Positions 6,951-52,117 of a stretch of DNA of 64,000 nucleotides are shown piece after piece. The position numbers and the translations under genes were made by a program. The stretch lies in assembly GCA_948567375.1 (NCBI GenBank), contig OX419755.1:1369001-1433000 (forward strand). Direction: 5' to 3'. A model generated the notes under the pieces. That model was not told where the DNA came from, did no database searches, and worked only from the letters and a program-made list of their open reading frames with translations. Every line of letters starts with the position of its first letter. Within the stretch, counting starts at the first letter, position 1. The DNA is from Lunularia cruciata. Taxonomy: Eukaryota; Streptophyta; Marchantiopsida; Lunulariales; Lunulariaceae.

Positions 6951-8212
6951 CGCATCTAGATGCTCAAAGACTAGAGTTCTAGTGATAGTAGTTAGAAAAA
7001 TTACAGTAGTTTCTTAGGGACTACTTTCCGACGGTCAGATTTTGTGTTCGGGGTACTAACTTCATGGTGGGGCCCACTATCACTTTGCACCATTTGCACC
7101 GTCGAGTGTGCCGTAAGCAGGACCGTTAGGGTTTCAGTTCTAGCTCGAGTCCAGGGGGTATAGTTTCAAAGTGGGCTCCAGAGAGCTCAATTCTATGATG
7201 TTGAGCCTTCGAGTTCCTGGCTATGGTGGACAAAGGCCGGCGAGCATCACCTGGATTCTCTATGCTTGAGTGGGTGTGGCTTGAGTGTAATCAGTGCCCA
7301 ATTGTTGGCAGTTTATAGAGTGACAGATCAAGTACTGATCTGAGTTGAGTTGAGAGTGTTAAGCAATCTGATTACATCAAAGAAGTGAAGTCAGGGGGGA
7401 ATTGAGTGCAGGAATTTTGAGTGTTGGTGGTATCTCCAAGCTCGATGGATTGTTGGTAGCTTGATTCAAATTTTGTGTTTCCTTAGTGTGCAGAAGCTCA
7501 ATCGATTGATGCAGATTTGGCAATTAGGCAGACGGTGTGCGGATGCACTAGCCAAATTTTGAGCAAAGAAGGAGCAAATTTCGAGTAGTGGTTGTGATTT
7601 TGAGCTCAAGAGGTGAAGGCAAGACCAATTTGCTACGAGTTGGGCTCAGAAAGTCAAATTGAAGGTGAGTTAGGAAGCTCTTCTCATGAAATTGTGATTT
7701 GGAAAAACCCGTGTTGTCAATTTGGCTCGAGTGGAAAGTTAGCAGGGGATTTGGCGGACAGCCATCTTTAGGGTTTACGTCAGATTTTGGCCAGATTTAG
7801 AGGAGTTTTGCTGTTTGGCCAGATTTGGAGGAGTTTCAATAGTTTGGAGGAGTTTCACAGATTTGGAGGCTTCAAGGCATAGGGCTGTGGGCTATGAGAG
7901 GCTACAAAGGCCTAGAAGGACCAGCAAGCTAGCTTGCTGGCGTGAGGCTAGCTAGTTTAGAGTACATCTTGGTCATTGGTTGGCAAAATCTACCTTTCTT
8001 GCTAGATTATGCGCAACAGGGTTTGACCCCTAGATCTCTTGTTCCTAGACTGGTGCCCTAGCCAACTGGCCCACCCTCACTTGTTGTCCTAGTGACTGTG
8101 CCACTGTTATCTATACACATGTAGCTTTGGCTAGGAAAGGCAGTTTTATCCCATTCTTGGTGATCCTGGTAGCTTAGGACTTAGATCCAAACTTCTCTTA
8201 TGTCAAATGCCA
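6951..8212 (+). repeat. 5' LTR of A1 (start truncated)
   Basis: From CCGCATCTAGATGC at 6952 to about 7375 this aligns with the 3' LTR from 24725. The remaining part (7375-8212) is absent from the 3' LTR, but related sequence occurs in reverse complement at 27246-29600 (A2) and at 55838-56165. The LTR ends just before a tRNA-iMet-like primer site. At 7795-7925 lies one copy of a segment that is tandemly repeated in A2. Confidence 0.65.
8019..8084 (-). other. tRNA-like (SINE-head-like) sequence
   Basis: Read on the minus strand, GGCCAGTTGGCTAGGGC resembles a tRNA D-arm/A-box, and GGGTCAAACCCTG about 30 bases later resembles a TpsiC arm/B-box. The spacing fits a tRNA, but the anticodon and acceptor stems do not pair convincingly. 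It is probably a tRNA-derived relic inside the LTR rather than a working tRNA. Confidence 0.3.
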
Positions 8213-8214
8213 AA

Positions 8215-8228
8215 TGGTAGCAGAGTCA
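8215..8228 (+). other. A1 primer binding site (tRNA-iMet type)
   Basis: TGGTAGCAGAGTCA resembles the usual plant site TGGTATCAGAGCCA, complementary to the 3' end of initiator tRNA-Met, with two differences. It lies two bases after a CA dinucleotide taken as the LTR end. Confidence 0.6.
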
Positions 8229-8740
8229 ATCCCGTGTTGTGTTATGAGATGGACGGTTTTCATTTAGATTTCTTGTGATTGGACTCCCTCCATTTTCTAC
8301 TTCCTGTTTGTGCACCATGTTTGTGTGAGTTGCCCTGACTTTTGAGCGTTGGTGCACTGGTGTGCTCTCAATGGTGAGGCTGGAGTGATGACCAGTCAGA
8401 CTACCTTTGTTTCTCTCCGGTGAGGCATGAAGTGATGACCTACAAACAGTGAGAGTGTGTGTTATGATGGCAAGTTATAGGCTGCCCTTTCCTTTAGTGT
8501 AATTATCTTGGTTAGAGTAAGATTGTGGGTGGTGCTTAGTTAGTATTGGCACTTGGTGGTATTGGCACTTGGTGGGGTACTTGCGGTTGCGACTTGCGGT
8601 TGTAGTTGGTGGTTTGGGTTTGCTATTGCGGTTACTTTGTCACGACAGAGTTCTTTGGAGATTCTAGAGGAGTTAGCCCTGCAGTACACAGTGGGTTTAC
8701 TTGGAGTGGTGCTTGATATCAGCCTGTATCTTAGGTCCCA

Positions 8741-9312
8741 ATGAGGGAGGAGATTGACTCTAAGTTGGAGTTTGACATAAGAGCTGATTCAATTGAGAGT
8801 GCACTTGGTGTGTCCGCACCGTTGTTGTGGGACATGGACAAGATTTATGGAGCCTCCAAAGGCCCTAGGCGTTACTTTGGTACAGTGAAAACCATTGAGT
8901 TGGATGACTTCATCCAAGAGTTTGATAGTTGGTGTGATCTGCAGCAGATGCGGAACCCAACTTTGTTCACACCCTTCATGGCATGGAAGGGGTTGTTTCA
9001 GCACTTGGAGGGTCCGCCGATGGATGACTACCATGAGTTCAAGAGAGCTCATTTGGAGGAGATTGAGTTATAGAGACAATATTGGTCTCCACACTATGTC
9101 TCCATCACTTCAGGCTTGGTGGCCAGGAGTAGATTGGCTGAACCTATGAGTTCTAGCTCAAGTAGTGTGGGTGGAGCTAGTGGAGGTGCACAAGCTGGAG
9201 ATAGTGCTACTACGAGTGGAGGCACCGCTGTAGGAGGTGGTGTGGTACTGGGGTTTAACCCCATGGTAGAGTTCTTCTTGTGTTTGAGGCAGAACTACCA
9301 AGGAGTGCGGAC
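8741..9312 (+). pseudogene. A1 gag, N-terminal part
   Basis: The frame opens at ATG 8741 (MREEIDSKLEF) about 510 bases after the primer site. It reads 110 codons to a TAG at 9071, then continues in frame through a Ser/Gly-rich stretch to QGVRT at 9312, where element B is inserted. The same frame resumes at 17110 as DRQAEELV, so the reading frame crosses the insertion. Trp and acidic clusters such as DDFIQEFDSWC suit a gypsy capsid domain, though sequence resemblance is weak. As gag it would form the particle. The TAG makes this copy defective. Confidence 0.65.
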
Positions 9313-10034
9313 TGTGAGCCGGCCTGTCTCTCACTCAGGATGAACCTCTGATGGCTATTATGGTAGCGCACCATGGAAGGCAAGGAATGCAAGGAATCCA
9401 AGGAAGGCAATCAAGGCAAGGAATCCCAACTCCATCATACTCCTCCAAGGCTAACACTCCAAGACTCAAGATATTGCTCACTAGAAAACTCAATGTGAGA
9501 GAGATAGTTGCAAATGAAAGGATGATGAGTACCTCCTCACCCCTTTTTTATAGAATTGTGAAATAGTTACGTACCAAGGTTACTTATTACCGTAGTAACT
9601 CAAGTTACTAGACTAAAAGTCAAGTAAAGTCAAAAAGTAGAAAGGAATATCCATTCAGATGGGTATATTCCCCTAAGCATGTGGTCTTATCTTGACCCAA
9701 CCACTAAGTCAAGGATTCCTTCACATGGGCTATCCTTGGACTAAAGAAGAATCCAAAACAAAAAGGCTTGCGAGCCCAAGAGTTCTCAACTCTTTCCTCA
9801 AAGCCAAACACCTAGGAATAATACCAAGTCAACACACTAAAATCCAAAATAGTGGTGCTCATCTTTTCTACTTCCTCTAAAGTAAGGTCCCCTCTATCTT
9901 AGCTATGACTAACTTTAGCTAACCATGACTAATATAGAACCATCCTTTATCTTTATATAAATTATATCTCTTAAGTACTTGTAATACCAAGCTAAATATC
10001 ACAATACCACACACATGCACAAATGGGTGTTACA
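9313..10034 (-). repeat. 3' LTR of element B
   Basis: As displayed it runs from TGTGAGCCGGCC to GGGTGTTACA. On the sense strand it starts TGTAACACCC and ends GGCTCACA. It aligns along its length with 16419-17109, differing by small indels, including extra AGGCAAGGAATC-type short repeats near 9375-9425. A TATA box (TATAAAAA) lies on the minus strand at about 9544-9552. Confidence 0.93.
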
Positions 10035-10047
10035 TTTACCCCCGGAC
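10035..10047 (-). other. Element B polypurine tract
   Basis: The minus strand reads CCGGGGGTAAA immediately before the 3' LTR start TGTAACACC, the expected position for plus-strand priming. Confidence 0.75.
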
Positions 10048-10082
10048 TAAGTTTTCACTTTGTCCTCAAAGTGAAGGTCTCT

Positions 10083-11525
10083 CTACCTTTTATGGTACAT
10101 CTTCAACTTATCATGGTTAATCCTATCAAAGTGTCTTCCTCCCAACTCCTTGAGATCATAGGTGTAATTGCCCCACACCTTCTCCACTATGAAAGGTCCA
10201 AAGTACTTAGGCAAAAACTTCTTTTGCACTCTCTTGAATTGAATGGAATCAAACAACATTACCCAATCACCTTCTTTGAAAGTCTCCACCTTCTTCTTGC
10301 CTTGCCTCTTGTCATAGCTCTCCTTTTGTTTCCTTTGGGCTTGCTCCACTCGAACCATAGCAACTGCTCTTGCCTCTTCCAACTCCATGAGTTGATCCTT
10401 CCTTGACTTCTCTACATCACCTCCTTGTGCTTTCTTCAATCTCCTATGAATGCTTTGGAAGGTAGGAAGATCAAAGTGAATAGGTAAGGTAGACTCAATA
10501 CCAAACACCAATTGAAATGGAGAATATCCAGTGGAAGTCTTCATGGTTGTCCTATACTCCCACAAAACTGCATGAATTCTCTTGTCCCAATGATGTTTAG
10601 CCCCCTCCATTTCTGCATCTTTGGCCAACATCATGCACAAGGTCTGATTGGTTTTCTCTACCAAGCCATTGGAATTTGGCTTATAGGATGTAGTTACTCT
10701 ATGTGTGATAGAGAAATGTCGTAGCATGGCTGTAGTAATGCTTTTTGTAAACTCTCGTTCTCTATCAGAAACCAACTCCAAAGGGCATCCAAACCTAGTG
10801 ATAATGCGTTCATAAAGAAATCTACCCACTTCATCTTCATTCTTGTCCCTCAATGGTCTAGCCTCAACCCACTTGGTAAGGTAATCAGTAACTACCACAA
10901 TGTACCGATTGTTCTTTGGGGTTCTATTGAGAGGACCTACAAAATCAATTCTCCACTTCTCAAAAGGTCCTAGCAATGGAATTGATCTAAGTGGTGGAGT
11001 GGATGTAGACTTTCTAGCAAAAGCTTGACAAACATGACAAGTTTTGCAATAATCAAGACAATCCTTGAAAATCACTCTCCAATGGTAACTTGCATCTAGA
11101 ATCTTGAAAGCAGTCACCTTTCCTGCAAAGTGTCCTCCACATACTAAACCTTCATGAAACTCCTTTATGAGTAGGATAGACTCTTCCTTACCCACTACTC
11201 TTTGAAGTAGACCATCTGCTCCTTGGTGAAAAAGAATATCCTCCACCATTGTGTAAGGTCTAGATCTTGCTGCAAGGGCCTTCCTCTCCCTAGCATGCAT
11301 CCCTTCTGGATAGTTACCTCTTGCCACAAAATCCACAATCTCCTTGTACTCCATTGGAACCTCTTGAGTGATTGAGATTGTCATGAGCTCCTCATCCGAG
11401 AAGGAATCATCCACTGGCTCATCTCTATCATGATCATAGGCTCTAGATAACAAATCAGCATTTGCATATTTCTTTCCTGGCCTATCCTCAATGGTGTAGT
11501 CATACTCAACAAGAGTATCATCCAC
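10083..11525 (-). CDS. Element B: RNase H end and integrase
   Basis: This is a 480-codon open frame. It starts with the RNase H/connection end (EYDYTIEDRPGKKYANADLL), in a different frame from the RT ORF, so a frameshift separates them near 11525. The integrase zinc domain has HEGLVCGGHFAGK and CKTCHVCQ. The core keeps all three catalytic acidic residues in context: RIDFVGP, LVSDREREF and SNGLVEKTNQ. The C-terminal domain has FKEGDWVMLF and ends DKLKMYHKR just before the polypurine tract. There is no chromodomain, as in Tat/Athila elements. It would insert the cDNA into the host genome. Start of the mature protein unknown. Confidence 0.9.
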   Translation of the reverse strand: MDDTLVEYDYTIEDRPGKKYANADLLSRAYDHDRDEPVDDSFSDEELMTISITQEVPMEYKEIVDFVARGNYPEGMHARERKALAARSRPYTMVEDILFHQGADGLLQRVVGKEESILLIKEFHEGLVCGGHFAGKVTAFKILDASYHWRVIFKDCLDYCKTCHVCQAFARKSTSTPPLRSIPLLGPFEKWRIDFVGPLNRTPKNNRYIVVVTDYLTKWVEARPLRDKNEDEVGRFLYERIITRFGCPLELVSDREREFTKSITTAMLRHFSITHRVTTSYKPNSNGLVEKTNQTLCMMLAKDAEMEGAKHHWDKRIHAVLWEYRTTMKTSTGYSPFQLVFGIESTLPIHFDLPTFQSIHRRLKKAQGGDVEKSRKDQLMELEEARAVAMVRVEQAQRKQKESYDKRQGKKKVETFKEGDWVMLFDSIQFKRVQKKFLPKYFGPFIVEKVWGNYTYDLKELGGRHFDRINHDKLKMYHKR

Positions 11526-14146
11526 CTTGCTAGTCTCCCTTCAACATTAGGCTTGTTGAAGATGTACTTCAAAGCCTTGTGATCCATGACAATGGTGGCT
11601 TTCCCTCCAATCAAGTAGTGTCTAAACTTCTTGAGAACAAAGATCACTACCAACCCTTCTCTCTCCGTGACAGAGTAGTTCTTCTCTGCTGAAACTATCT
11701 GCCTACTAGCATAAGCTATTGGATGATCATGCCCATCTTGGTCTAATTGACTAAGAGTGCATCCTATAGCTACATTAGAAGCATCAGTGTAGAGGATGAA
11801 AGGCTTACTCCAATCAAGTTTAGCAAGAATTGGAGCTACAACAAGGGATTGCTTGAGCTCCTCAAAAGCTTTGAGAGCCTCCTTGTCCTCCAAAATCACC
11901 ATGTAATCTACACCCTTCTTCATGTAGATGGTAAATGCATAAGCCTTGTTGGAAAATGAGAAGATGAACCTCCTATAGTATCCACCCATCCCCAAGAATT
12001 GGCGTAACTTTGTCAAGCTTGAAGGGAATGGAAGGTCTGAGATTTTCCTCACCTTCTCAGGATCAACTGTTATTCCATCCTTGGAGATAATGTGCCCCAA
12101 AAGGAGACCTTCTTCACATCCAAAAATGCACTTCTCTGGATTGAGTGATGCATTTGCCTCATCCAAGCGTTGCAAGACTTTGATTAGGTGCTCAAAGTGC
12201 TCCTCCTTGCTCCCATAGACACAAAAGTCATCAATGAAGTCTCTCACAAATTTCCCAATGAAACGTTCAAATACCTTGTTCATGAACCGTTGGAATGTGG
12301 CTGGAGCATTGCAAAGCCCAAAAGACATGACCTTGAAAGCATAAGTTCCCCAAGGTGTGGTGAACGTAGTGAGTTGTTGATGCTCTGGTGCAATCTTGAT
12401 TTGGTTGTATCCACTATAACCATCTCCAAAACTGTACCTCTCATGACCTACAACCTCCTCCAAGATCTCATCAGTGAATGGCAATGGGTAATAGTCCTTC
12501 TTGGTAACAGCATTGAGCTTCTTGTAATCCACACATACCCAAAGCTTGCCATTCTTTTTCTTCACAATGACAATTGGAGACACCCATTCTAAATTCTCCA
12601 CCTCAAAGATAAATCCTGCCTCCTTGAGCTTATCAATCTCCTCCTTCACAACCAAAGATATTGGTGTGCTAATGCGACATTGCTTTTGGCGGATTGGTCT
12701 TGCATGTGACTCCACCTCTATCTTGTGCTCCTCCAAGGTGACTTCCTTCAAATCCTTGTAACTAAAAGTAAACACATGGATGAACTTGCGGAAAATCTCC
12801 TCAAATCTCACCTTCTCCTCCTTGGTAACATTTGGGCCATACTTGAGGGTAGCTAACCTTCTCTCTACCTCCTCAAGTGTCAATGGTGATTTGTCTGGGT
12901 CCTTCAAAACCTCTGGCTTAGGTGCAAAATCCATAGCACACAAAGGATACACATCTGAATCCGATTCAGATTCATCCTCCTCCGTGGAAGTCTCCTCTTC
13001 CATGCTTGTGTCCACACCTGAAGCTCCTTCTTCAAAATTTGATTCCCAATAATCAGAAGATGGTGTATCTGAATGTGAAGTGTTGGTGGTGTTAGTCACA
13101 GAAACTGTGACTCTATGGTTTGATGGCCCAATCCTCAAGTACCCTTTGTGCCATCGATCAGTTGTGCGTGCTACTCTCAACCATGGCCTCCCAAGAAGTA
13201 AGTCATAGCTTGAATCCTTCAAGACTTGGAAAGTCATGAGATTTTGAACTCCCATAACTGAAACTACCACTTTATCCATCACCCCTACTGGTCGAACTTG
13301 TTGCTTGTTTGCCATGCTCACCACAAATGTTGAAGGTCTTGAGGGTATCATACCCAACTTCTTCATCAACCTTTTTGACATGGCATTTACTGCTGATCCT
13401 CCACCAACCAATGCATCCTTGATGTTGTGACCATTCACCCTCACATCAATCTTGGAGGCATGTTCACAAGCCTCCCATGGTGCTAGCTTGGCATCCACCA
13501 CCCCCATTGATACTGGAAATTTTGCCTTCTTCTTCCTCTTGCTCCTTGTAGAACTCAAACCACCTCTAAGCTCCTTTCTCAAGGTAGGGTTCAAAGCAAT
13601 CAATTGGCCCACTGTGATGTTAGCCTTGTGACTACCAACATCCTCCAACACATTGTAGTTCCATTGTTGCTTTGAGATCAAGAAGTCCTCCATCCCCAAC
13701 TTCTTCCTTGGAGTCTTTGTTGTTGATGGTGTTGAGGTGCGAGTAATCCTAGTAGACATAGGAGTATCCTTGCTTGGAGGAAATCCTTGAGAAGAGTGAA
13801 CATCCTCTGCAAAATGAGCTCTCTTCTTCTCTTGTGCCAAAAGCTCCAAATTAAGACCCTTGGAGTTTGAGCACTCTCCCTTCTCATACTTGCTCTCAAC
13901 CACATCTATGGATGCTATCCCCTTACCTTTGTTGGGATTAGGAGCCACTTGGGTTTCAGTACCTCCCTCTTTCCTTCTATTGGCTCCCTCATAACCCCTT
14001 CCTCCATGGTAAGTAGAATTTGGGCAATTCCTTTGGATATGACCTCTTCCTCCACAACCAAAACAATTTCTATCATTGAAATTGTTGGCTGGTTGGCCTC
14101 CTCTATATGGATAGTTTCCATAACTCCTAGGCCCTCTCCCTACATT
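11381..14146 (-). CDS. Element B: CCHC knuckle, protease, RT and RNase H
   Basis: One open frame follows the gag TAG. It has a CCHC knuckle (CFGCGGRGHIQRNC, 14065-14024), then a retropepsin region with ALVGGGSAVNAM where ALVDGGSAVN is expected. The catalytic Asp codon is GGT (Gly) at 13403-13405, and LLLGRPWL follows. The RT has VCVDYKKLNAVT, MSFGLCNAPATFQRFMN and the catalytic FIDDFCVYG. RNase H has FILYTDASNVAIG and VTEREGLV. It would process the polyprotein and copy the RNA. The frame matches that of 14147-14866, so gag and pol are one frame separated by a single amber codon. The last ~45 codons before 11381 are out of frame with the true sequence after the frameshift. Confidence 0.9.
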   Translation of the reverse strand, partial: NVGRGPRSYGNYPYRGGQPANNFNDRNCFGCGGRGHIQRNCPNSTYHGGRGYEGANRRKEGGTETQVAPNPNKGKGIASIDVVESKYEKGECSNSKGLNLELLAQEKKRAHFAEDVHSSQGFPPSKDTPMSTRITRTSTPSTTKTPRKKLGMEDFLISKQQWNYNVLEDVGSHKANITVGQLIALNPTLRKELRGGLSSTRSKRKKKAKFPVSMGVVDAKLAPWEACEHASKIDVRVNGHNIKDALVGGGSAVNAMSKRLMKKLGMIPSRPSTFVVSMANKQQVRPVGVMDKVVVSVMGVQNLMTFQVLKDSSYDLLLGRPWLRVARTTDRWHKGYLRIGPSNHRVTVSVTNTTNTSHSDTPSSDYWESNFEEGASGVDTSMEEETSTEEDESESDSDVYPLCAMDFAPKPEVLKDPDKSPLTLEEVERRLATLKYGPNVTKEEKVRFEEIFRKFIHVFTFSYKDLKEVTLEEHKIEVESHARPIRQKQCRISTPISLVVKEEIDKLKEAGFIFEVENLEWVSPIVIVKKKNGKLWVCVDYKKLNAVTKKDYYPLPFTDEILEEVVGHERYSFGDGYSGYNQIKIAPEHQQLTTFTTPWGTYAFKVMSFGLCNAPATFQRFMNKVFERFIGKFVRDFIDDFCVYGSKEEHFEHLIKVLQRLDEANASLNPEKCIFGCEEGLLLGHIISKDGITVDPEKVRKISDLPFPSSLTKLRQFLGMGGYYRRFIFSFSNKAYAFTIYMKKGVDYMVILEDKEALKAFEELKQSLVVAPILAKLDWSKPFILYTDASNVAIGCTLSQLDQDGHDHPIAYASRQIVSAEKNYSVTEREGLVVIFVLKKFRHYLIGGKATIVMDHKALKYIFNKPNVEGRLARWMILLLSMTTPLRIGQERNMQMLICYLEPMIMIEMSQWMIPSRMRSS

Positions 14147-14866
14147 CTAATCCACCTCTCTCTTCTCCCATAGTTGCACCACATTGATCTTGAGATCTGC
14201 AAGTTGTTCTGTGATGGTTTGGAGTGGATCTTTTGGTGGAGGTGCAAGAACTGGAGCAACTACTACTTGTGGTGCAACCCTTGTCACCAAAGTATCAGAA
14301 GTTCCACCATACTTGTAGCCTTGAGGAGGATGCACAACCTCCTTCACCACCAAATCACTCTCATCCCCTTCCAAACTCTCCTCCATACGAATTGTGATCT
14401 TGATAGCTTCAACCTTGGAAGAAGGTTTCTCATATCTCACCTTGCTTCTAATTTGTGGTCTCAACCCTCCCACAAAATTCTTGGTGAGCATGGCCCCTAT
14501 GCCAATCATTGTAGTCTCCACATCATCCCCACCCTTCCTCAACACTATGCAAAATCTGGACTCCAACTTTTCCACTCTTTCCACATAGACTCTCACTTTC
14601 TCTCCATCTCTTTGCTTGAGAAATTTGACCTCACTCATCAATCTCTCATAACTCTCATCATGAAGAAAGTTCTCAATGAGTGCTGAAGTCAAAGTCTCCC
14701 AAGACTCCTCTTCCCCATCTCTTCTCTCTCTCTTTTGGTATTCTGACTCATACCATGTAAGTGCTACATCCTCAAAGAAATCTGGTAATAATGAGGCCCA
14801 CTCATTATTTCTCCTCTCATTGTTTCCTATGCAAGCTCTCTTGAAGTCTCTCACAAAGGCCTCCAC
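14147..14866 (-). CDS. Element B gag (capsid domain)
   Basis: This 239-codon frame ends in TAG at 14147-14149. It contains the Retrotrans_gag pattern: WASLLPDFFEDVALTWYE, then SWETLTSALIENFL, then FLKQRDGEKVRVYVERVEKL and FVGGLRPQIRSKV. This is the plant gypsy capsid domain that multimerises into particles. The frame is open upstream of the Met at 14866 to about 14910 (LLVFFGKDGEDVEAFVRDFK), so the true start may be further upstream or lost. Downstream, past the TAG, the same frame carries the CCHC knuckle and pol. Confidence 0.88.
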   Translation of the reverse strand: MEAFVRDFKRACIGNNERRNNEWASLLPDFFEDVALTWYESEYQKRERRDGEEESWETLTSALIENFLHDESYERLMSEVKFLKQRDGEKVRVYVERVEKLESRFCIVLRKGGDDVETTMIGIGAMLTKNFVGGLRPQIRSKVRYEKPSSKVEAIKITIRMEESLEGDESDLVVKEVVHPPQGYKYGGTSDTLVTRVAPQVVVAPVLAPPPKDPLQTITEQLADLKINVVQLWEKREVD

Positions 14867-15238
14867 ATCTTCTCCATCCTTGCCAAAGAAAACCAGAAGT
14901 TTCCCATCTTAACCTCTCACTATCTTTCTTTTCTCTCAATTTTTCTTTTTCTCTTTTCTTTTCTCTCACTCTATAACTAATAGAGTATATACATGACTAA
15001 CACCATTTGAGAGTAATCCACCCTAGAGAACACAAAAGGTTCAAGTTGCTCCAAGATTTCTATAGCAACATCAAATCCTAGAGTGCATATTAATCAAACC
15101 CTCATGGATAGTTTATCCATAAGTTGAAAGATTATCTCCATCACTAATCTTGAGAACTAGCTGATGAAGGTGGTAGTATTTCTATAGCCGTACTAAGACT
15201 CTCTCCAAGATCCTTCACCAAAGTCTCCAAAAGTGATT

Positions 15239-15514
15239 TTACTCCACTACACTCATGTCAAGTAAGCCTTTCCTTTCCCTCAATCTCCTGCTCTCAAAGG
15301 TCAATGGACATGAACTTGCCTTATGTCCCTTCTCTCCACACAGAAAGCACTTAGACTCACTCTTTCCTCCAAGTGGTGTAGGTTTTTGGAGCCTCTCAAT
15401 ACTCTCTTCAAATTCTATTATAAACTCTGTTTTCCTCAAATCCACCCCTACAATCATCTCAAACCCTTGAGGAACCTTGCATAATCTCAATTTCCACTCT
15501 TGATGACCCTCCAT
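15239..15514 (-). CDS. Small CCHC zinc-knuckle ORF in element B leader
   Basis: This 91-codon frame lies between primer site and gag. Residues 56-69 form a canonical CCHC knuckle (CFLCGEKGHKASSC), followed by a basic stretch (SRRLRERKG). The gag frame has its own knuckle at 14024-14065, so this is a second one, upstream and separate. It may be a leftover of an older or duplicated nucleocapsid, or part of a gag N-terminus broken by mutation. The first ~45 residues are not recognisable. Expression is unknown. Confidence 0.5.
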   Translation of the reverse strand: MEGHQEWKLRLCKVPQGFEMIVGVDLRKTEFIIEFEESIERLQKPTPLGGKSESKCFLCGEKGHKASSCPLTFESRRLRERKGLLDMSVVE

Positions 15515-16440: not shown

Positions 16441-17109
16441 TCATGATGAACCTCTGATGGCTATTATGGTAGCGCACCATGGACTAAGAAGGCAAGGAAC
16501 CCCAACTCCATCATACTCCTCCAAGGCTAACACTCCAAGACTCAAGATATTGCTCACTAGAAAACTCAATGAGAGAGAGATAGTTTCAAATTAAAGGATA
16601 ATGAGTACCTCCTCACCACTTGTTTATATACTTGTGAAATAGTTACGTACCAAAGTTACTAATTACCGTAGTAACTCAAGTTACTAGACTAAAAGTCAAG
16701 TAAAGTCAAAAAGTAGAAAGGAATATCCATTCACATGGGTATATTCCCCTAAGCATGTGGTCTTAGCTTGACCCAACCACTAAGTCAAGGATTCCTTCAC
16801 ATGGGCTATCTTTGGACTAAAGAAGAATCCAAAACAAAAGGCTTGCGAGCCCAAGAGTTCTCAACTCTTTCCTCAAAGCCAAACACCTAGGAATAATACC
16901 AAGTCAACACACTAAAATCCAAAATAGTGGTGCTCATCTTTTCTACTTCCTCTAAAGTAAGGTCCCCTCTATCTTAGCTATGACTAACTTTAGCTAACCA
17001 TGACTAATATAGAACCATCCTTTATCTCTATATAAATAATATCTCTTAAGTACTTGTAATACCAAGCTAAATATCACAATACCACACACATGCACAAATG
17101 GGTGTTACA
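16419..17109 (-). repeat. 5' LTR of element B
   Basis: This LTR matches 9313-10034. In sense it begins TGTAACACCC at 17109 and ends GGCTCACA at 16419. A TATA box (TATATAAAC) lies on the minus strand at about 16622-16630. It borders A1 gag sequence GGACAGACAAG at 17110. Confidence 0.93.
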
Positions 17110-18119
17110 GGACAGACAAGCTGAGGAGCTTGTTGGAGTTCCAGTGGAAGGCTAGAGAGAGCCTACGCGAGGCATACACTTGCATGAGGCGGCTGATCAG
17201 TTTCACTCAAGGAGTTATTGAGGCCTAGGCAGTCCAGTTTTGGTATGGAATATTGGACAGGGAGTTACAACGTAGAGTTTGTGATGCTACGTTGTTGTAG
17301 GCTACTTCACCCACTTTGGCAGTAGTCTTTGGTTTGGCTGACCGTATTGAGCTCAACATGGTGGAGGAGAGAGTGGTGACATTTGGATTTGGTAGGGAGA
17401 TCTCATCCACGGTTGTGACTTCTTCTAGAGTGCGGCAGAGTGCACCATGCCCAGTTGGTTTTTGAGGATAGGGTGGACAGCCCAGATCCTATGGAACGAG
17501 TGGAGGGCCTAGTGGAGTTAGACTCTTACCCTCATTTTTGGGTCAGCAGTAGCTTGTGAGTGGTGGGGTCACTTGTTGGACTTGTAGTGGACCTCACCAT
17601 CGGAGAGAGTGTACTCATGGCAATGGACCTGATACCTCGGGTGCATCATAGCCATCACAGAGGTAGTGTGAGCATTGCCACAGATTTGGTCACACTAGTG
17701 ACCGGTGTTTTGACCTACACCCGGAGTTACGGAGTGGTAGGGCTGCTATGGTTGGTAGTAGAGGAGCTCCAGTTCATGGAGGACAAGGTGGTAGAGGTGG
17801 TGGTAGAAGATCTACACCTTGTAGGGGTGCAGTACCTGCCCTTACTTCTGACACAACTATGGCTACTTGGATTGAACAATTGGAGTAGAGATTGGCTAGT
17901 ATGGCTATTGCTCAGAGGAGATCAGATTTGGGTGCTAAGGCTTCCACCTCATATGCTGGTGATAGAGATGCTTTGGACTTCATGTGCGGAGCAGCACAGG
18001 TGGATGCATCTACAGCAATGACTAGGAGTGCAGTACATGCTCCAGAGCCTAGAGGAGCATCAATGGAGTTGGACCCACAAAGAGGAGAGGTTGGGAGACA
18101 AGTCAGACTTCCCTAGTCT
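17110..18119 (+). pseudogene. A1 gag, C-terminal part with two CCHC knuckles
   Basis: The gag frame resumes here after element B. Early on, FWYGILDRELQRRV (about 17231-17280) fits the end of a Retrotrans_gag domain. Two zinc knuckles follow in one frame: CWTCSGPHHRREC (17574-17612, with an atypical H-x3-C spacing) and the canonical CEHCHRFGHTSDRC (17667-17708). A Gly/Arg-rich stretch (GGQGGRGGGRRS) comes after. The knuckles would bind the RNA genome. Several TAG/TGA stops interrupt the frame, and most are one C-to-T change from CAG or CGA. Confidence 0.75.
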
Positions 18120-18122
18120 TTT

Positions 18123-18617
18123 ATGCTATCTGAGGCATTGCAGACAACGTCCATGGTTCCTAGATGTCCCAATGCAGGTGTGGTAGGTGGTGATGGAGTA
18201 CATAATGGACAACCTGCTAGTAAACTACCTGCTACTACACAGACTGAGTCTAGCATGATGTTGGGGGCGGCTCAGCTCATTATGCCTCATCCTTTGTTTT
18301 TAGCCAGTGACATGTTTACATTGGGAGTTGACCCAACCCCAATGTTTTGGTTGGCTGCAACGTTGTGTGAGAGTAGGGATGGTGTAGTTTGTACTACTAG
18401 AGCAGAGGTGGTTGGTAGTGGAGCTGACTTGGTTGAGGAGCATGGGATCCGTTCAACGACCAATGGTTTATGGCAGGCAGTGCCGGCTAGACTGGAGGAG
18501 TTGCCAGCTAGACCGGCCTTTGAGAGAGCATGGTCCACACCTGGTGTTGTCCTATTGGATAACCAAAGGGGGATTTTTTGTTTGGTAGGACCTTCAGGGA
18601 AGGTCTATACACCATAG
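18123..18617 (+). pseudogene. A1 unrecognised domain between gag and protease
   Basis: This 164-codon open stretch lies between the knuckles and the protease. It contains WLAATLCESRDGVVCTTRAE and GADLVEEHGI...TNGLWQ. The same block occurs in A2 at 27240-27063 (ATLCESRDGVV, GADLVEENGI, TNGLWQ), and those residues are identical, so it is conserved in the family. I do not recognise the domain. It ends LLDNQRGIFCLVGPSGKVYTP, which leads into the protease. It may be a protease N-terminal extension or a separate module. Confidence 0.55.
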
Positions 18618-19320
18618 AGAGTCTTGTTAGACTCTGGTGCATAGCCTCTTATGTTGGGGAAGGCTGTAGTTGTTGGTCTGGAGTTACGGAAGACCGATGT
18701 GGAGAGGTGTCCATTTCAGATCCAGACATCTTTAGGTGGTGGTTTGACATAGTACATCACACATGGGGAGCTTGTTGTCCAGGTTCAGCCTGGTCATCCA
18801 GCTGATAGCTCGGTGGTGAGAGCTCAGGCTATTGCGACAATAGTTGAGTCATATGATGTGCTAGTTGGGGGAGCAGTGTTATACCCCATGGGTTTCAGCA
18901 TTGACTATTGGGAGGAGACAGCCTCTTATAGACCTGGTTGGCAGTTTGGTGAGGGACGGGTATGTGGCCTACTAGTACGCTTCAGTAGTGGCAGTCTTGG
19001 CTCACTACTGTCCGGGACCATGGCAGCATCAGTTTTAGCTTTCAATGGTGCAATTATGTGGCATGGTGACTTGTTGGAGGGGAACGCCCATGTAGAGGAT
19101 ACTCCAGTACCAGAGAAGATCACTCGGCTTTGGAGTACGAGTGGGATTGTTCCATCCACCTTGGATGTTCCATTGTGGAGTTCAGAGGAGGCATTGCAGC
19201 AACATGCAGATCAGTTGGTGCAACAAGCTTGAGTGGAGCCTTCGTACCATCAAGAGATGAGTGTGAGGATGAGCCTCTATAGTTGTTTGCTATGACACCT
19301 TTGGATACCACACTCATTGC
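18618..19320 (+). pseudogene. A1 aspartic protease (retropepsin)
   Basis: The active-site triad is intact as VLLDSGA (Asp codon 18630-18632), followed at once by a TAG. Then come RCPFQIQTSLGG and the flap/psi-loop-like VLVGGAVLYPMGFSIDYWEE near 18856-18920. The remainder, to about 19320, is a less conserved linker towards the methyltransferase. It would cut the polyprotein. Two TAG codons and a frameshift disable it. Its order directly before the methyltransferase is repeated in A2. Confidence 0.75.
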
Positions 19321-19321
19321 T

Positions 19322-20302
19322 TGGCAGTATCCAATAGAGGGGATATGTCTATTGGAGTTGTTTGGTGGGATCAGCACCGGACTAGCTACGGTGTTACAGG
19401 CGGTATCCAGGTACAGAGGTACTTGTATGTAGAGAGAGATGAGACTGCTAGGCGAGTCTCTCTACATCATGTGGCACACTTGGCCTATCGATATCCAGAG
19501 TTATTACCAATGTCAGCAGTCAAAGGTTACCAGAAGGCCATACCAGGAGACATTTCCTTACTAGGGGCACATGACCTAGAGAGACATGGGCCTATTCACT
19601 TGGTGATTTCTGGATGGCCATGTAAGGGACATACACGTGCTGGTAGAGGATTGGGTCTTTAGAATCCTTGTTCTAGTGTGTTTTGGGAGATGTTAAGGAT
19701 ACTATGACATCTCCAGGTTCATCAGTCCGTTTCTCCAGCTTACCTTTTGGAGAATGTTCCTTTGATGGGTGATTCTTGCACCAGAGTGGTGGCAAGTACA
19801 CATCAGGTCCATTCTTGGATGGGACCTATTGTATTGTTAGATGCAGCCAGAGTGGGATCATGGGCTTGTTGTCTTCGTCTTTGGTGGACGAACCCTTAAC
19901 CCAGAGAGGTTCTACAGTGCGCTTATGATGGGATTCAGCGACTTGACCATATCCTTGTTGATGATATCTTGGATGTTGGGCGTTAGTCTCAGATAGTGGT
20001 AGTGGCTCACAGGTCACCTATGGCAATGGCGAACCTAGTTGGATAGCCTAGAGCCACATTTCCCACACTCATGAGTTTCCCAGGCTCTCATGCTTTTTGA
20101 GAGGGAGGACCTAGACTTGTTTGGGACTCACAGTTAGAGTAGTTGGTAGAGCCCAACACTGATGAGAGAGAGCGGGCGATGGGTTTTTGCACCGGTATTA
20201 CCGCTGTTCCAGTAGTGTCAAAGGCATCCAGGCGTCAGGTGTTAGGTCAGGCTATGGACCTGAACTGTTTGACCTGGATTGTGAGCCTTGGCTTGGCAGA
20301 GC
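19322..20302 (+). pseudogene. DNA (cytosine-5) methyltransferase domain in A1 polyprotein
   Basis: C5-methyltransferase motifs appear in canonical order over about 320 codons. Motif I is LLELFGGISTGLATVLQA (19349-19402), the cofactor-binding loop. Motif II/III is RYLYVERDETARR. Motif IV is LVISGWPCKGHTRAG, with catalytic Cys at 19621-19623. Motif VI is LLENVP (19744-19761). Motif VIII is LDAARVGSWACCLRLWWTN (about 19837-19893). A terminal block contains ERERAMGF and RRQVLGQAMDLNCLTWIV, matching motifs IX/X. The order is not the permuted DRM arrangement, and no target-recognition domain of normal size is seen. It would methylate cytosine in DNA using S-adenosylmethionine. One frameshift near 19400 and several stops (for example 19660 and 19912) kill this copy. 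It sits between protease and RT, continuous with both. Confidence 0.87.
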
Positions 20303-20988
20303 TATAACACCCATTTGTGCATGTGTGTGGTATTGTGATATTTAGCTTGGTATTACGAGTACTTAAGAGATATTATTTATATAGAGATAAAGGATGGTTT
20401 TATATTAGTCATGGTTAGCTAAAGTTAGTCATAGCTAAGATAGAGGGGACCTTACTTTAGAGGAAGTAGAAAAGATGAGCACCACTATTTTTGATTTTAG
20501 TGTGTTGACTTGGTATAATTCCTAGATGTTTGGCTTTGAGGAAAGAGTTGACAACTCTTGGGCCCGCAAGCCTTTTTGTTTTGGATTCTTCTTTAGTCCA
20601 AGGATAGCCCATGTGAAGGAATCTTTGACTTAGTGGTTGGGTCAAGATAAGACCACATGCTTAGGGGAATATGCCCATGTGAATGGATATTCCTTTCTAC
20701 TTTTTGACTTTACTTGACTTTTAGTCTAGTAACTTGAGTTACTACGGTAATTAGTAACTTTGGTACGTAACTATTTCACAAGTATATAAACAAGTGGTGA
20801 GGAGGTACTCATCATCCTTTCATTTGCAACTATCTCTCTCATTGAGTTCTCTAGTGAGAAATGTCTTGAGTCTTGGAGTGTTAGCCTTGGAGGAGTATGA
20901 TGGAGTTGGGATTCCTTGCCTTCTTAGTCCATGATGCGCTACCATAATAGCCATCAGAGGTTCATCATGAGTGATAGGCCGGCTCACA
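20303..20988 (+). mobile_element. Solo LTR-B in A1
   Basis: This is the plus-sense equivalent of the element B LTRs, from TATAACACCC (TGTAACACCC in B) to GGCTCACA, 686 bp with no internal region. GAGC flanks both sides (20299-20302 and 20989-20992). It interrupts A1 exactly after the methyltransferase end; the frame continues on the other side. It presumably formed by LTR-LTR recombination of a second B-type insertion. Confidence 0.92.
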
Positions 20989-21348
20989 GAGCAGCATAGG
21001 ATGTGCTTGATAGGCATCACCACTCGGAAACTTGTGAGCCCTGTGCCTATCGAGACGATTCAAGCACATGCTGGGGGCGATAGACCAAGTGGACATGGTA
21101 TTCTTGGGACACATCCAGTAGCTACTAGGGAGAATGGTCTACTTGGAGTCCATCCAGGTGAGCGTGGGCTACTTGGATTACACCCTTGGTCCACATGGGA
21201 TGCAGCCAGAGGACATGTGGAGCTTGCAGCCAAAGTGGAGGGAGTTGTTCACACAGAGGTTGGGACCTCTAGTGGTCGGAAGCATCACACTATTGCTCCC
21301 AAGGGCCCAGTGTAGCAGTCAGTCAGTACGTCTTCCACTCCTACTATA
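20989..21348 (+). pseudogene. A1 linker between methyltransferase and RT
   Basis: The frame from the methyltransferase runs on as EQHRMCLIGITTRKLV and stays open to 21315. It holds three spaced copies of a G-x-L-G-x-H-P motif (GILGTHP, GLLGVHP, GLLGLHP), followed by a basic, Gly/Thr-rich tail. No domain is recognised, and it may be a flexible spacer cleaved by the protease. Confidence 0.45.
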
Positions 21349-22790
21349 GTTACAGAGGATACTTGGGAGCCAAATCTTGGACCCAAGCTTACTGGAGAGG
21401 AAAGACGGAGGGTTTGGAGGTTCTTGAGGAGTCACACAAGTTGTTTTGCCTTCAGTATGAAGGATTTGGGTGCTCTGAAGGGACCTGGTATACGGATTGA
21501 GCTAACTTGCAACACACCAGTTTTCTGACGTCCTTATCGATATAGTGATATGGAGAGGACATTGATTCAGAGCCGGAGTAGTGACCTTTTTGAGGCTGGT
21601 TTGGTGGAGATTTCACATGGAGAGTATGCATCAACAATAGTGATGCCAGCCAAGAAGGATATGCATAACAACTATATAGATAAGCGGATGTGTAGAGATT
21701 ACCGTCCTATCAACCGACAGACAAGGGCTGATCGATATGTCATGCCTACATTGGAGGAGATTTTTGATGCGATTGGGCATGCAAAGATCTTTAGTACTTT
21801 GGATCTTCAAGCGGGATATCATCATTTGCCGATTAGGGAGGAGGATGAGTCCAAGACAGCATTCTGGGCTATTGATCCTCACGGTAAGGATGTGTTATAT
21901 CAATGGAGGTTCTTACCATTTGGGTTAAAGAATGCTCCTGTTGAGTTCCAGAGGGTCATGGATAGGATCCTAGCTAGATTGAATTTTGCTCGGTGCTATA
22001 TTGATGACATTTTGGTTTATAGCACTACTGTGGAGGAGCATGAGAGACAATTGTTGGAGGTGTTTGAGAGGTTGAGATCTCATGGACTCAAATTACATCC
22101 TGGGAAGTGTAGGTTCTTCCACAAGCAGGTTGAGTATTTGGGTCACACTATCTACCCCGGAGGACTTGGTGTTCAGCAGACCAAGGTGGAGGCTATTGCA
22201 CGTATTCCTTGGCCTACGGATGGGACCAGAGTGCAAGCATTCCTTGGGTTGGCAAACTTCTATTGCCGCTATGTTAGAGGATTTAGTGCCATTGCCAAGG
22301 CCTTGACAAAGCTGACCAAGCTTACACAAGAGTGGTGTTGGGGAGATGAGCAGGAGAGAGCTTTTGTAGAGCTCAAGGAGAAGTTGACATCTGCTCCTAT
22401 TTTGAGGAGACCGATCAAGGGACAACCATTTCAGGTTCACACTGATTGGAGTATGTTGGGGCTTGGAGCAGTGCTCACCCAACATGATGATGAGGAGAAG
22501 GAGTTTGTGGTGGCCTATGCTAGTCGCTCCAACAATTCAGTGGAGGCAAAGTATAGTTCATATGAGGGAGAGTTCTTGGTAGCAGTTTGGGCAGTAGTAC
22601 ATTCCGATGTTACCTATTTGGGAACCCCTTCACTCTCATCACTGATCATCAGCCGCTGAAGTGGTTGATGGAGTCCGACAAGCTTTCAAGGAAGCTTGCA
22701 TGATGGGCTCTGATTTTATAGGAGTATAATTTCACGGTTGTTCACAGACCTGAAATGGTGAACCATGATGCAGATGGGTTGAGTAGAAAC
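21349..22790 (+). pseudogene. A1 reverse transcriptase and RNase H
   Basis: From 21349 the frame reads a typical gypsy RT approach, has one TGA near 21526, and then is open 21550-22659. Motifs are ISHGEYASTIVMPAKKD, CRDYRPINRQT, STLDLQAGYHHLPI, FLPFGLKNAPVEFQRVMD and the catalytic CYIDDILVYS (YIDD codons 21997-22008). The RNase H start (FQVHTDWSMLGLGAVLTQHD) keeps its first Asp, while the usual Ala-Ser after it is Trp-Ser. A frameshift near 22610 is followed by ITDHQPLKWLM and HRPEMVNHDADGLSRNP, the normal end. It would make cDNA and remove RNA. The frameshift and stops are inactivating. Confidence 0.9.
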
Positions 22791-24288
22791 CCATGTCCCT
22801 GCCAGCAGGATCAGACCGGAGCACGTTGGCATGGTGAGACAAATGAGGAGATGGTGCCAGGTTGGCATGCATCGGCCTTTCTGTATATATTTGCAGAGGC
22901 TTTGGTGGTATCTCTCTCAGCGCATATAGGAGGAGTTATTGAGGTCACACATCCAGAGAGTGAAGATATTGGTATAGTTTAGCGAGACATTCATGATGAT
23001 GTCTTAGTGATGGACTATCTTTGCACGGGTGTTGTGGGTGGCACAGTTGGGGCCAAGGAGAGAGACCGTGTTCTTCAGCGAGCCAAACGGTTCAGATTGG
23101 AGGATAGACACCTTTTGCGTGTATGGGAGGATAGTAGAGTGCGAGTAGTACCACTTCCATCACAGAGACCACAGTTGGTCCATCATGCTCATGAGGAGCT
23201 AGGACATTTTGGAGTAAAGCATATGTATAGCTTACTCCAGAGTCATTATTGGTGGCACGGTATGTAGACCGAGGTACATTAGTTTGTTGCCATATGTGTG
23301 GTTTGTGACCGAGTTAGAGCATCATTCAATGCTCCTACGCCACAATTACACCCATTACCTATCATGGGATTGGGTTACCGTTGGAGTTTGGACTTCACCG
23401 GACCTTTACCGCCGACTATGAGACATCATCGGTATGTTTTGGTGATGGTGGAGCACTTCTCCAAGTGGATTGAGTTGGTGGCACTTCCTGACAAGTCTAG
23501 TGAAGGGACAGCTTACTCGTTCCTGGATCAAGTTCTTAGTCATTTTGGTGCACCAACTGAGGTTTTGACTAATCAGGGTACAGAGTTCTTGGGGGAGTTT
23601 CAGGTCTTGTGTGACAAGGCTTTGATTGATCATCGTACTACATCCCGAGATCACCTTGAGGCAGATGGATTAGCAAAGAGAGTGGTTCAGATGGTGAAGA
23701 GAGGATTGCAAAAGTATGGTTTGTAGAGAGGCCACTTGGGGAGATTGGGATCTCCAGTTACCTTGGTTGGCCATGGGCTATCGGTTTAGCCGGCAAGCCT
23801 CCTTAGCATCCTTCTCTCCATACTTTCTACTCTATGGACAAGATCCAGATTTACCTGCAGCCATTCACCAAGATGCTACTGTAGTTTTGGACTTGGATGA
23901 CCCTAATGTATGGATGAGTGCATGTTCTTAGCGGGTAGGGATCTTTTGGAGAGTGATGCCGATGGCCTTTGAGAACTTGGCGATTGCTCAGCATAGAGAT
24001 ACTTTATGCTATGCTACCATTTGAGGAGGACGTTATAGACCCTTGATCCGTTGATTTCATCCAGGTGACTATGTATATCTACAATAGACAGCACCGATGA
24101 CACTTGATGTTTCTACAAGCTGCACTATCTTGAGAATGCGCAAGGTTTTGCCATTTGGAGTCCTTGTGTTAGAAGGATGTGATGGTGTTGTTTGGAAGGA
24201 TCATGTGTGCAATTGTGCACCGTGCCACCTTCCAAACATTGATGGTTCTATGGACCCAAGCTTGGCACTTGTACGTGCAAGCTTGAGG
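22791..24288 (+). pseudogene. A1 integrase
   Basis: The zinc domain is HHAHEELGHFGVKHMYSLL and CVVCDRV (23179-23320), broken by TAG at 23265 and 23280, where A4 has CAG codons. The core has WSLDFTGPLPP, VLTNQGTEFLGEF and HLEADGLAKRVVQM. The second catalytic Asp is Asn and the final Glu is Lys, although A4 keeps both. FHPGDYVYL marks the C-terminal domain near 24057, and the frame continues as ILRMRKVLPFGVLVLEG into the PHD finger. Frameshifts after 23725 disturb the middle. This copy cannot have active integrase. Confidence 0.85.
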
Positions 24289-24429
24289 TGTATGTTATGT
24301 GGCTCTTCAAGTGGAGCTGCTACTATGTTAGTGTATGATAGCTGTTTGAGAGGATGGCATATGGCATGTATGACTCCTCCCCTCGTTGTGGTTCCTCAGG
24401 GATAGTGGTTATGTCCTAGATGTACTTGA
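24289..24429 (+). pseudogene. A1 C-terminal PHD finger
   Basis: This is a C4HC3 PHD finger appended to the integrase: CMLC, then YDSC (third zinc Cys replaced by Tyr), GWHMAC, and WLCPRC with Trp two residues before the seventh ligand. A TAG interrupts before WLCPRC, and the frame ends TGA at 24427. PHD fingers read histone H3 tails, methylated or not. In chromoviruses a chromodomain occupies this place. The A4 copy (51808-51942) has all eight ligands. Loss of one Cys and the stop show this copy is dead. Confidence 0.85.
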
Positions 24430-24584
24430 CCTTTAGCTAGTTCATTCTTGATATGGTATAGATTGCAGACAAGCAACTAACGATCGGGCTCCATAGCACC
24501 CGGCCTCCTGATCTTTGCCCATTAGAGGGTATATCATATACTTAGAGTAGATGGCTATCTGGAGTTAGAGGGACCTAACCGCCA
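24430..24584 (+). other. A1 3' untranslated part
   Basis: This lies between the PHD stop and the polypurine tract. A similar sequence follows the PHD fingers in A3 and A4 (the CCCGGCCT and TATACCATATAC words are shared). No frame. Confidence 0.6.
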
Positions 24585-24598
24585 GCTAGGGGGGCAAT
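24585..24598 (+). other. A1 polypurine tract
   Basis: GCTAGGGGGGCAAT immediately precedes the LTR start TGTGGCAC. The matching sites in A3 (GCTAGCGGAGCAAT) and A4 (GCTACGGGGCAAT) hold the same position. Confidence 0.75.
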
Positions 24599-25261
24599 TG
24601 TGGCACTTTAGAGTCTATGTATGACTTATGTGTGAGTTGTGCTTCTATAGTGCATGATGTTGACAGCGATGTATGTTGTGTAGCGATGTATATACGCACG
24701 ACAATTGTCACACCATTTGTACTTCCGCATCTAGATGCTCGGACACTGGAGTTCCAATGATAGTAGTTAGAGTTATTTCAGCTGTTTCTCAAGGACTACT
24801 TTCCGACGGTCAGATTCTGTGTTCGGGGTACTGACTTCACGATGGGGCCCACCGTCACTTTGCACCATTTGGATCGTCAAGTGTGCCGTCAGCAGGACCG
24901 TTAGGGTTTCAATGCTAGCTCAAGTCCAGGGGGTATAGTTTCAAAGTGAGCTCTAGAGAGCTCACTTCTCTGATGTTGAGCCTTCAAGTTCCTGGCTATG
25001 GTGGACAAAGGCCGATGAGCGTCACCTGGATTCTCTATGCTTGAGTGGGTGTGGCTTGACTGTAATCAGTGTCCTGTTGTTGGCAGTTTATAGAGTGATA
25101 GATCAAGTACTAATCTGAGTTGAGTTGAGTTGAGAGTGTTAAGCAATCTGATTGATTGTGGCACTTTAGAGTCTATGTATGACTTATGTGTGAGTTGTGC
25201 TTCTATAGTGTATGATGTTGACAGCGATGTATGTTGTGTAGCGATGTATATACGCACGACA
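24599..25261 (+). repeat. 3' LTR of A1
   Basis: This starts TGTGGCACTTTAG after the polypurine tract and ends near CGCACGACA. The first ~113 bases recur at its end (25147-25261), so the LTR carries a terminal direct repeat. The same arrangement is found in A3, A4 and the 60-kb fragment. Its middle (24725-25140) matches the 5' LTR 6952-7375. Confidence 0.8.
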
Positions 25262-49861: not shown

Positions 49862-50030
49862 CCTATAGCTAGTTCATTCTTTATATGGTATGGATTGCAA
49901 GCAAGCAACTAACAATGGGGCTCCATAGCACCCGGCCTTTTGATCTTTGCCCATCATAGGGTATACCATATACTTGGAGTAGATGTCTATCTGGAGTTAG
50001 AGGGACCTAACCACCAGCTAGCGGAGCAAT

Positions 50031-50690: not shown

Positions 50691-50696
50691 ATATCT

Positions 50697-51948: not shown

Positions 51949-52117
51949 CCTATAGCTAGTTCATCCTTTATATAGTATAGATTGCAAACATGCGACTAAC
52001 AATGGGGCTCCATAGCACCTGGCCTTTTGATCATTGCGCATCATAAGGTATACCATATACTTAGAGTAGATGGCTATTTGGGAGTTAGAGGGAACTAACC
52101 ACTAGCTACGGGGCAAT

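Follow-up and report, generated by a model that had tools for sequence, protein, structure and literature searches.

The 64,000 nt of the Lunularia cruciata genome analysed here (contig OX419755.1, positions 1,369,001 to 1,433,000; hereafter the window) contain a dead copy of an abundant retroelement family that encodes both a DNA cytosine-5 methyltransferase (DNMT) and a PHD finger. The copy is a single decayed retroelement with a Gypsy-type pol region, broken by two nested long terminal repeat (LTR) insertions, and its domains are ordered gag, CCHC knuckles, protease, DNMT, reverse transcriptase (RT)-RNase H, integrase and PHD finger. This is the composite element put forward in the original prediction, which had been made from the letters of the window, and we regard its identity and architecture as practically certain. 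The right limit given there, position 25261, was correct; the left limit, 6951, was not, and the element begins at 6939. The 4 bp target-site duplication ATCT, at 6935-6938 and 25262-25265, brackets positions 6939-25261 of the forward strand. Both modules were also found in other copies from the same genome, on one open reading frame (ORF) in 27 of 106 database relatives, and on contig CADCWO010000201.1 (locus L015), which bears out the proposal of one retroelement family with both.

Methyltransferase, PHD finger and reading frames

The protease-RT-RNase H-integrase order of Ty3/Gypsy elements is present in the focal copy (the protease recognized by eye), with the DNMT lying between protease and RT. 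Profile matches identified the RT (PF00078, E=9.4e-33) and the integrase (PF00665, E=4e-13), and protease profile matches occur at the corresponding place in relatives and in 19 other copies from the genome.

The DNMT motifs follow one another in the canonical order that had been predicted, with motif I at 19343, IV at 19612, VI at 19744, VIII at approximately 19876 and X at approximately 20149-20250. Because this order is linear, the domain is Dnmt3-like and not DRM-like. The Pfam search proposed for it gave a divided answer. Unjoined, the open pieces of the focal methyltransferase block had no Pfam match, and the domain read across seven stops and a frameshift behind motif I reached 21.7 bits (PF00145, E=1.5e-4), under the cut-off of 22 bits; the same domain in another copy from the genome, L038, passed at 30.5 bits (E=3.4e-7). 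Compared with PDB sequences, the focal DNMT matched DNMT3A at 7.8e-9, DRM entries at 0.03-0.05 and HaeIII at 0.13, and a profile of 15 ORF1 relatives matched DNMT3A at 3.5e-20, a DRM at 4.1e-8, HaeIII at 6.1e-8 and HhaI at 5e-5. An AlphaFold2 model of the stop-free L015 DNMT domain had a mean predicted local distance difference test (pLDDT) score of 93.4, and the 50 PDB matches listed for it were all DNMT3A, DNMT3B or DNMT3C entries, some with DNMT3L, at TM-scores of 0.66-0.74 by query length. A phage or bacterial origin of the DNMT is disfavoured by the PDB matches, the profile search, the DNMT tree and the model matches.

The catalytic residues are nearly invariant among the 56 DNMT domains that are about 280 residues long or longer (34 of layout A and 22 of layout B, defined below): the motif IV Cys is present in 55, the Glu and Asn of the ENV motif in all 56, and the His, Arg and Arg of motif VIII in 56, 55 and 56, respectively. 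That the methyltransferase block might be an unrelated insertion was ruled out: each of 20 further copies from the genome, chosen for having a DNMT but not for where it sits, has the domain between gag and RT, and relatives have it between protease and RT.

The best PHD finger in the window, at 51808-51942 in a truncated family copy, matched PF00628 as anticipated, scoring 38.8 bits where 24 are required (E=9.3e-10). The focal finger, at approximately 24.29-24.42 kb, has one zinc-binding Cys replaced by Tyr and one stop, and scores below the cut-off (E=4.7e-4, 20.6 bits). The C4HC3 spacing is kept in 57 of 59 database proteins, and all 12 right parts read from the same genome have an intact finger. 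The L015 PHD model had a pLDDT of 73 overall and 85-90 within the finger; among the nearest solved structures were the fingers of UHRF1, DPF3, KDM5-type proteins, BAZ2B, BHC80, ATXR5, BAZ2A and ORC1b, and several structures resembling the model were solved with unmodified H3. Pfam identified no chromodomain at the integrase C-terminus, where the PHD finger takes its place.

The other copies came from a PF00145 scan of the L. cruciata genome (565.8 Mb, 74 contigs), in which 2,161 first-look candidates, of which 123 were scored, gave 123 matches, possibly including host genes. Twenty of these, hand-picked for their long frames of 623-1,428 aa, were read as 9 kb left parts, and 12 of the 20 as right parts too. 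The coding capacity is divided between a gag-CCHC-protease-DNMT frame and an RT-RNase H-integrase-PHD frame, with a single in-frame UAG between them. In all 20 copies this UAG ends the first frame and is in frame with the DNMT; the complete first frame of L029 and L038 comprises 1,428 aa from gag to DNMT, and nine copies have an open frame of >250 aa starting right behind the UAG in the same frame. The six bases 3′ of the UAG fit the consensus CARYYA, the leaky stop context of the tobacco mosaic virus type, in 19 of the 20 copies, L026 being the exception; the window copy and L015 (CAATCA) fit it as well. Judged by this context, the UAG between DNMT and RT appears to be of the leaky type.

Pairwise comparisons of the copies, taken together, gave ratios of non-synonymous to synonymous differences (pN/pS) of 0.23 for the protease (19 copies), 0.24 for the RT (19 copies), 0.43 for the DNMT (20 copies, codon bootstrap 0.28-0.68) and 0.47 for the integrase (12 copies, 0.31-0.75); the value of 0.21 for the PHD finger (12 copies, 0.02-1.78) is not informative. 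Stops interrupt 9 of 20 DNMT, 8 of 19 RT and 5 of 12 integrase domains, and pN/pS therefore mixes selection before insertion with decay afterwards. Three of the 20 copies lie inside another family copy: L025 after its PHD, L026 in its leader and L040 in its DNMT.

Split terminal repeats with integrase-type ends

The terminal repeats of the focal copy are split: A1 stands by itself on the left, and B1-AT-A2-B2 closes the element on the right. The A cores (6949-7373 and 24724-25153) are 89-90% alike, and the B spans, as aligned at 24597-24705 and 25155-25263, are 99% alike. The difference between the pairs in this copy (B1 and B2 differ at 1 of 109 sites, A1 and A2 at approximately 10%) possibly reflects gene conversion between the close B copies. 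B opens directly after the polypurine tract, and A stops where the left internal region begins.

This arrangement recurs throughout the family. Eighteen of the 20 left parts show a terminus, and none has a B before A, which rules out loss of a left B by truncation of the window copy alone. The right parts read B1-A2-B2 in 11 of 12 cases (L047 has B1 alone), with a spacer of two bases between B1 and A2 in 11 of 11. The ends are TG...CA, and a 4 bp duplication was found in 8 of the 10 copies read at both ends (not in L027/L052 or L040/L049), as well as in the window copy. Eight of the 10 have at most 10 differing sites between A1 and A2 and at most one between B1 and B2; the exceptions are L040 (44 and 10 sites) and L038, whose A1 is damaged. 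As both pairs are near-identical in these eight copies, the whole split structure was made at insertion. Genome-wide, 27-base patterns allowing up to two mismatches recovered 2,954 A/B, 2,692 polypurine tract/B1 and 2,157 B-NN-A junctions, which are lower bounds and include truncated copies, and reversed-pattern controls recovered 0. An A/B junction does not occur in a plain LTR element.

The identical LTR at both ends that defines Ty3/Gypsy elements is absent: since the left end carries A only and the right end B-NN-A-B, we call the pol Gypsy-type without classing the element itself among canonical LTR retrotransposons. For a tRNA primer binding site next to the left repeat, inspection by eye showed no TGG-starting site right after A1. 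The A-coding-B-A-B split direct repeats of DIRS/PAT elements are present, but the mode of integration is not theirs, as the family has a PF00665 DDE integrase and 4 bp duplications. No target-site duplication is expected of DIRS-type elements.

Further family sequences and the parts of the focal element are collected in Table 1. Repeat comparison found no DNMT repeat in the window copies at 48846-50695 and 50698-52757. These two truncated copies stand head to tail at 50695-50698, where the second opens in mid-integrase directly after the B2 of the first. Elsewhere in the window, direct repeats of approximately 3.1 kb (33226-36382 and 43171-46319; pieces 92-98% alike, spacing 9.94 kb) resemble the LTRs of a further large element.

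Table 1. Parts of the focal element and other family sequences in the window
Feature	Position	Strand	Remarks
Left terminal repeat A1	6939..7374	+	Starts TGTC; core 6949-7373, 89% to 24724-25153; no B before it
gag, first part, as far as the nested insertion	8735..9340	+	Matches gag of other copies
Nested full Ty3 element of a different family	9413..17126	-	Approximate limits, from LTRs 9413-10034 and 16489-17126
gag, second part	17103..18600	+	Two CCHC-like knuckles near 17.55-17.71 kb in translation
Aspartic protease region, decayed	18600..19300	+	DSGA, later YDVLVG; by eye and position
Dnmt3-type C5 methyltransferase	19325..20303	+	One frameshift and seven stops
Solo LTR of nested family, between DNMT and RT	20286..20983	-	Inverted repeats I1-I4
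UAG between gag-protease-DNMT frame and pol frame	21313..21315	+	Next six bases CAGTCA, fitting CARYYA
Reverse transcriptase and start of RNase H	21529..22656	+	Profile match
Integrase core	23283..23723	+	Profile match
PHD finger, decayed	24280..24420	+	Translation and profile score
Repeat B1	24597..24703	+	Immediately 3′ of polypurine tract AGGGGGG
Repeat A2	24706..25154	+	After B1 and 2 nt spacer AT
Repeat B2, right terminus, final CA	25155..25261	+	Repeat comparison
Second copy, 5′-truncated: integrase end, PHD, B-A-B	48846..50695	+	Repeat comparison
Third copy, 5′-truncated: integrase, PHD 51808-51942, B-A-B	50698..52757	+	Repeat comparison, Pfam
A-B unit without B1	59828..60288	+	As A1 x A2 recombination would leave

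Relatives and comparison with known elements

Three protein searches returned 31, 44 and 55 rows, the third scoring the best 7,985 word-sharing candidates, and together gave 106 different proteins. Family members were found in Marchantia polymorpha, Sphagnum fallax, Riccia sorocarpa, Calypogeia fissa and Klebsormidium nitens, and also in Chlamydomonas eustigma, Monoraphidium neglectum, a transcript-like EukProt record and many metagenomes. Identity of relatives to the window is 33-68%; the closest rows are R. sorocarpa, at 83% over 189 integrase columns, and Marchantia, at 69% in the DNMT and 72% in the RT. The DNMT is present in 71 of the 106, the PHD finger in 59 and both on the 27 ORFs mentioned above (4 of layout A, 23 of layout B), leaving 44 with DNMT only, 32 with PHD only and 3 with neither; the 106 are single ORFs or fragments retrieved with DNMT or integrase-PHD queries, and these shares are not element frequencies.

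Examples of a DNMT placed between protease and RT come from Marchantia (proteins P0004 and P0012), Sphagnum (P0025) and metagenome relatives. One protein carries both modules in Marchantia, where it is a remnant interrupted by a gap (P0032), and in C. eustigma (P0103, whose DNMT was found by the family profile and not by Pfam). The P0103 gene model seems to fuse the family member with part of a Gypsy element that bears a chromodomain: behind a second integrase fragment stand both a weakly matching chromodomain and a Tf2-1 SH3 domain. Other Marchantia proteins and those of Sphagnum and Monoraphidium have the DNMT without a PHD finger, K. nitens has the PHD without a DNMT, and the Riccia and Calypogeia pol pieces have neither. 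P0014 (DNMT) and P0037 (PHD) both report a longest contig of 8,955, and this shared figure suggests that they lie on one contig. L015, the one locus from a scan of genome contigs, carries a CCHC-protease-DNMT frame running off the contig start and an RT-RNase H-integrase-PHD frame, both free of stops, and the same 127 bases stand at its two ends, an overlap expected of a circle or a collapsed repeat. It is filed under a cyanobacterial bin, which is probably contaminated, as the retroelement is of eukaryotic type. Among viral contigs, a scan with P0037 found no relative, and a scan with alignment A2 found 14 loci with short matches of 26-64% identity and no family copy; these loci were rejected as family members and taken for phage-type methyltransferases.

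The relatives fall into two layouts, with the DNMT between protease and RT (layout A) or between RNase H and integrase (layout B). A single branch separates the two in the DNMT tree (33+22 rows), the integrase tree (7+24) and the RT tree (10+17, built by a quick method). This congruence indicates that the DNMT moved once in the sample, and both the DNMT and the PHD finger were probably present in the common ancestor. The RT tree nests B in A and the integrase tree nests A in B, with weak support and one distant outgroup, and horizontal transfer may have played a part. In the DNMT tree the position of DNMT3A, on a long branch, is unsure; because plant host Dnmt3 was left out of this tree, a single capture of the DNMT from a host Dnmt3 is not proven. 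Two layout B proteins, P0026 and P0030, have a further similar-looking stretch behind the PHD, in which Pfam named nothing in P0026.

Chromoviruses are Ty3/Gypsy elements with a chromodomain at the integrase C-terminus, and are not known to carry a DNMT. The family resembles them in placing a histone-reader module at the end of the integrase, and differs in that this module is a PHD finger instead of a chromodomain.

The closest described element is KnitGypsy-Dnmt3 of K. nitens (de Mendoza et al. 2018; PMC5890265), a Gypsy element with a Dnmt3 in pol at Ka/Ks <0.2, whose DNMT the authors regard as acquired independently in the K. nitens lineage. Its structure as described resembles that of the window family in an unrearranged Dnmt3-type DNMT within a Gypsy polyprotein and in DIRS-like A-coding-B-A-B repeats. 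The word PHD is absent from the main text of PMC5890265, although Fig. 4(c) may show more. A K. nitens pol protein, P0054, carries a PHD and groups with pol-PHD proteins of the window family in which no DNMT is linked, and it is likely part of the published element. SymbioDIRS-Dnmt3 of Symbiodinium also has a Dnmt3 in retroelement pol, split repeats and two domain orders, but a tyrosine recombinase where the window family has a DDE integrase (PMC5890265). The original prediction was correct on DNMT retroelements in Klebsormidium and dinoflagellates. CR1/L2 long interspersed nuclear elements with a PHD carry it in ORF1 as a rule, and a targeting role has been proposed for it; like the window family they are retrotransposons with a PHD, but they are non-LTR elements, and the part of PMC4120745 available makes no mention of a DNMT. 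A 2025 paper places DNMT3 members in LTR Copia and DIRS retrotransposons, reported earlier in streptophytes and dinoflagellates (PMC12344493).

The kind of element is already known from one charophyte. The accessible portions of PMC6453930 and PMC3286476 hold nothing on DNMT-plus-PHD elements, and our literature search, which covered few subscription journals, found no description of such an element, in land plants or otherwise, in keeping with the statement in the original prediction that none was known from a land plant. Within the literature searched, the following are new: the PHD, the extension to liverworts and chlorophytes, the two DNMT positions, the leaky-type UAG and the TG...CA ends with 4 bp duplications on split repeats.

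Proposed replication and alternative explanations

From the relatives we infer that the DNMT-PHD pairing is ancestral to the lineage and has been kept by selection. In the explanation that we favour, and to which we give a little better than an even chance, the DNMT would be synthesized along with gag, a plentiful product, would be packaged, and would methylate CG sites of the new complementary DNA (cDNA) in the particle or on nuclear entry. Readthrough of the UAG would yield pol-PHD, whose PHD, occupying the position of the chromovirus chromodomain at the end of the integrase, would hold the integration complex to H3 tails, more likely those without K4 methylation. New copies would then land pre-methylated in chromatin favoured by the PHD. 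Reverse transcription would produce conventional LTRs (B-NN-A), the ends of which would be joined; a cut by integrase at CA-NN-TG within one of the LTRs would then open this molecule, giving A-coding-B-NN-A-B. We consider the opening of a joined-LTR molecule by integrase an even call; targeting of integration by the PHD falls just short of that, and methylation of cDNA by the element's own DNMT is a more tentative proposal still. The most far-reaching version, in which a green-plant lineage predating the liverwort/charophyte split, and perhaps the chlorophyte/streptophyte split, combines cDNA methylation by a Gag-level Dnmt3, steering by the PHD and joined-LTR opening at CA-NN-TG as a DDE-integrase route to DIRS-like repeats, is unlikely to hold in all its parts.

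The split repeats could instead be a true product of DIRS/PAT-type replication, the DDE integrase merely inserting such a linear molecule. The arrangement is the same as in DIRS and KnitGypsy-Dnmt3 (PMC5890265), but the A and B boundaries lie where joined conventional LTR ends would put them, and the 4 bp duplications and TG...CA are marks of integrase; we think this origin rather improbable. A different role for the two modules would be that of a brake, with the DNMT methylating integrated copies of its own family for silencing by the host, so that less damage is done, and the PHD bringing the enzyme of the readthrough polyprotein there. Joint conservation of DNMT and PHD would suit this role, slowing of retrotransposition was discussed as an option by de Mendoza et al. 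(PMC5890265), and the 3 of 20 left parts inside other family copies would fit attraction to the family's own chromatin. Self-insertion is, however, expected of any abundant repeat, and >2,600 right-end junctions (≤2 mismatches) speak of strong amplification; we consider a brake distinctly unlikely.

The domains might also be non-catalytic, binding nucleic acid or histones for packaging or cDNA binding, with the motif residues kept for the fold. The replacement of the motif IV Pro in many layout B members, and the inconclusive inactivity of the Klebsormidium domain in yeast (PMC5890265), would be explained in this way; a catalytic Cys in 55 of 56 and an ENV Glu in 56 of 56 domains are not demanded by binding alone, and we give this reading a lower chance again than the brake. 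That DNMT and PHD are passengers, caught by chance and persisting without function, is highly improbable: the focal copy is indeed dead, with its disrupted DNMT (one frameshift, seven stops) and damaged PHD, and some members do lack one module, but residues are conserved at 33-68% identity, long frames are open and the DNMT pN/pS is 0.43, with an upper bound of 0.68.

Several observations weigh against the explanation by packaged DNMT and PHD-directed integration. The motif IV Pro is replaced by Glu or Ser in 6 of 34 layout A and 15 of 22 layout B domains, so DNMT activity is not certain everywhere; Glu or Ser in place of the Pro of the catalytic Pro-Cys is unusual among C5 methyltransferases. 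The DNMT pN/pS of 0.43 exceeds the 0.23-0.24 of protease and RT, in copies picked for long frames, and the PHD interval is too wide to serve as proof of selection in this genome. Nine of 36 proteins with DNMT and integrase show no PHD (some are truncated), P0028, P0085 and P0086 lack it despite their long ends, the Cys/His tail of P0073 has diverged, and P0067 has a PHD and no DNMT; neither module is thus indispensable to every lineage. The joined-LTR step is read from the structure of the repeats. The histone H3 state read by the retroelement PHD is a guess, and so is the K4 preference, because the listed PHD matches include UHRF1 solved with H3K4me3 (3sow) and Ehd3 solved with H3K4me1 (9vno). 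The K. nitens DNMT gave no methylation in yeast, a result called inconclusive by the authors, and the SymbioDIRS DNMTs gave de novo CG methylation there (PMC5890265).

DNMT retrotransposons had been reported from dinoflagellates and one charophyte. Here they form one lineage, with >2,600 right-end junctions in the L. cruciata genome and members in several green groups, many of which carry both a writer and a reader module. The integrase-type ends on split repeats call into question the equation of DIRS-like repeats with a tyrosine recombinase, and suggest that integration starts from an unusual substrate. Why a transposon should carry a silencing enzyme becomes testable in tractable hosts such as Marchantia.

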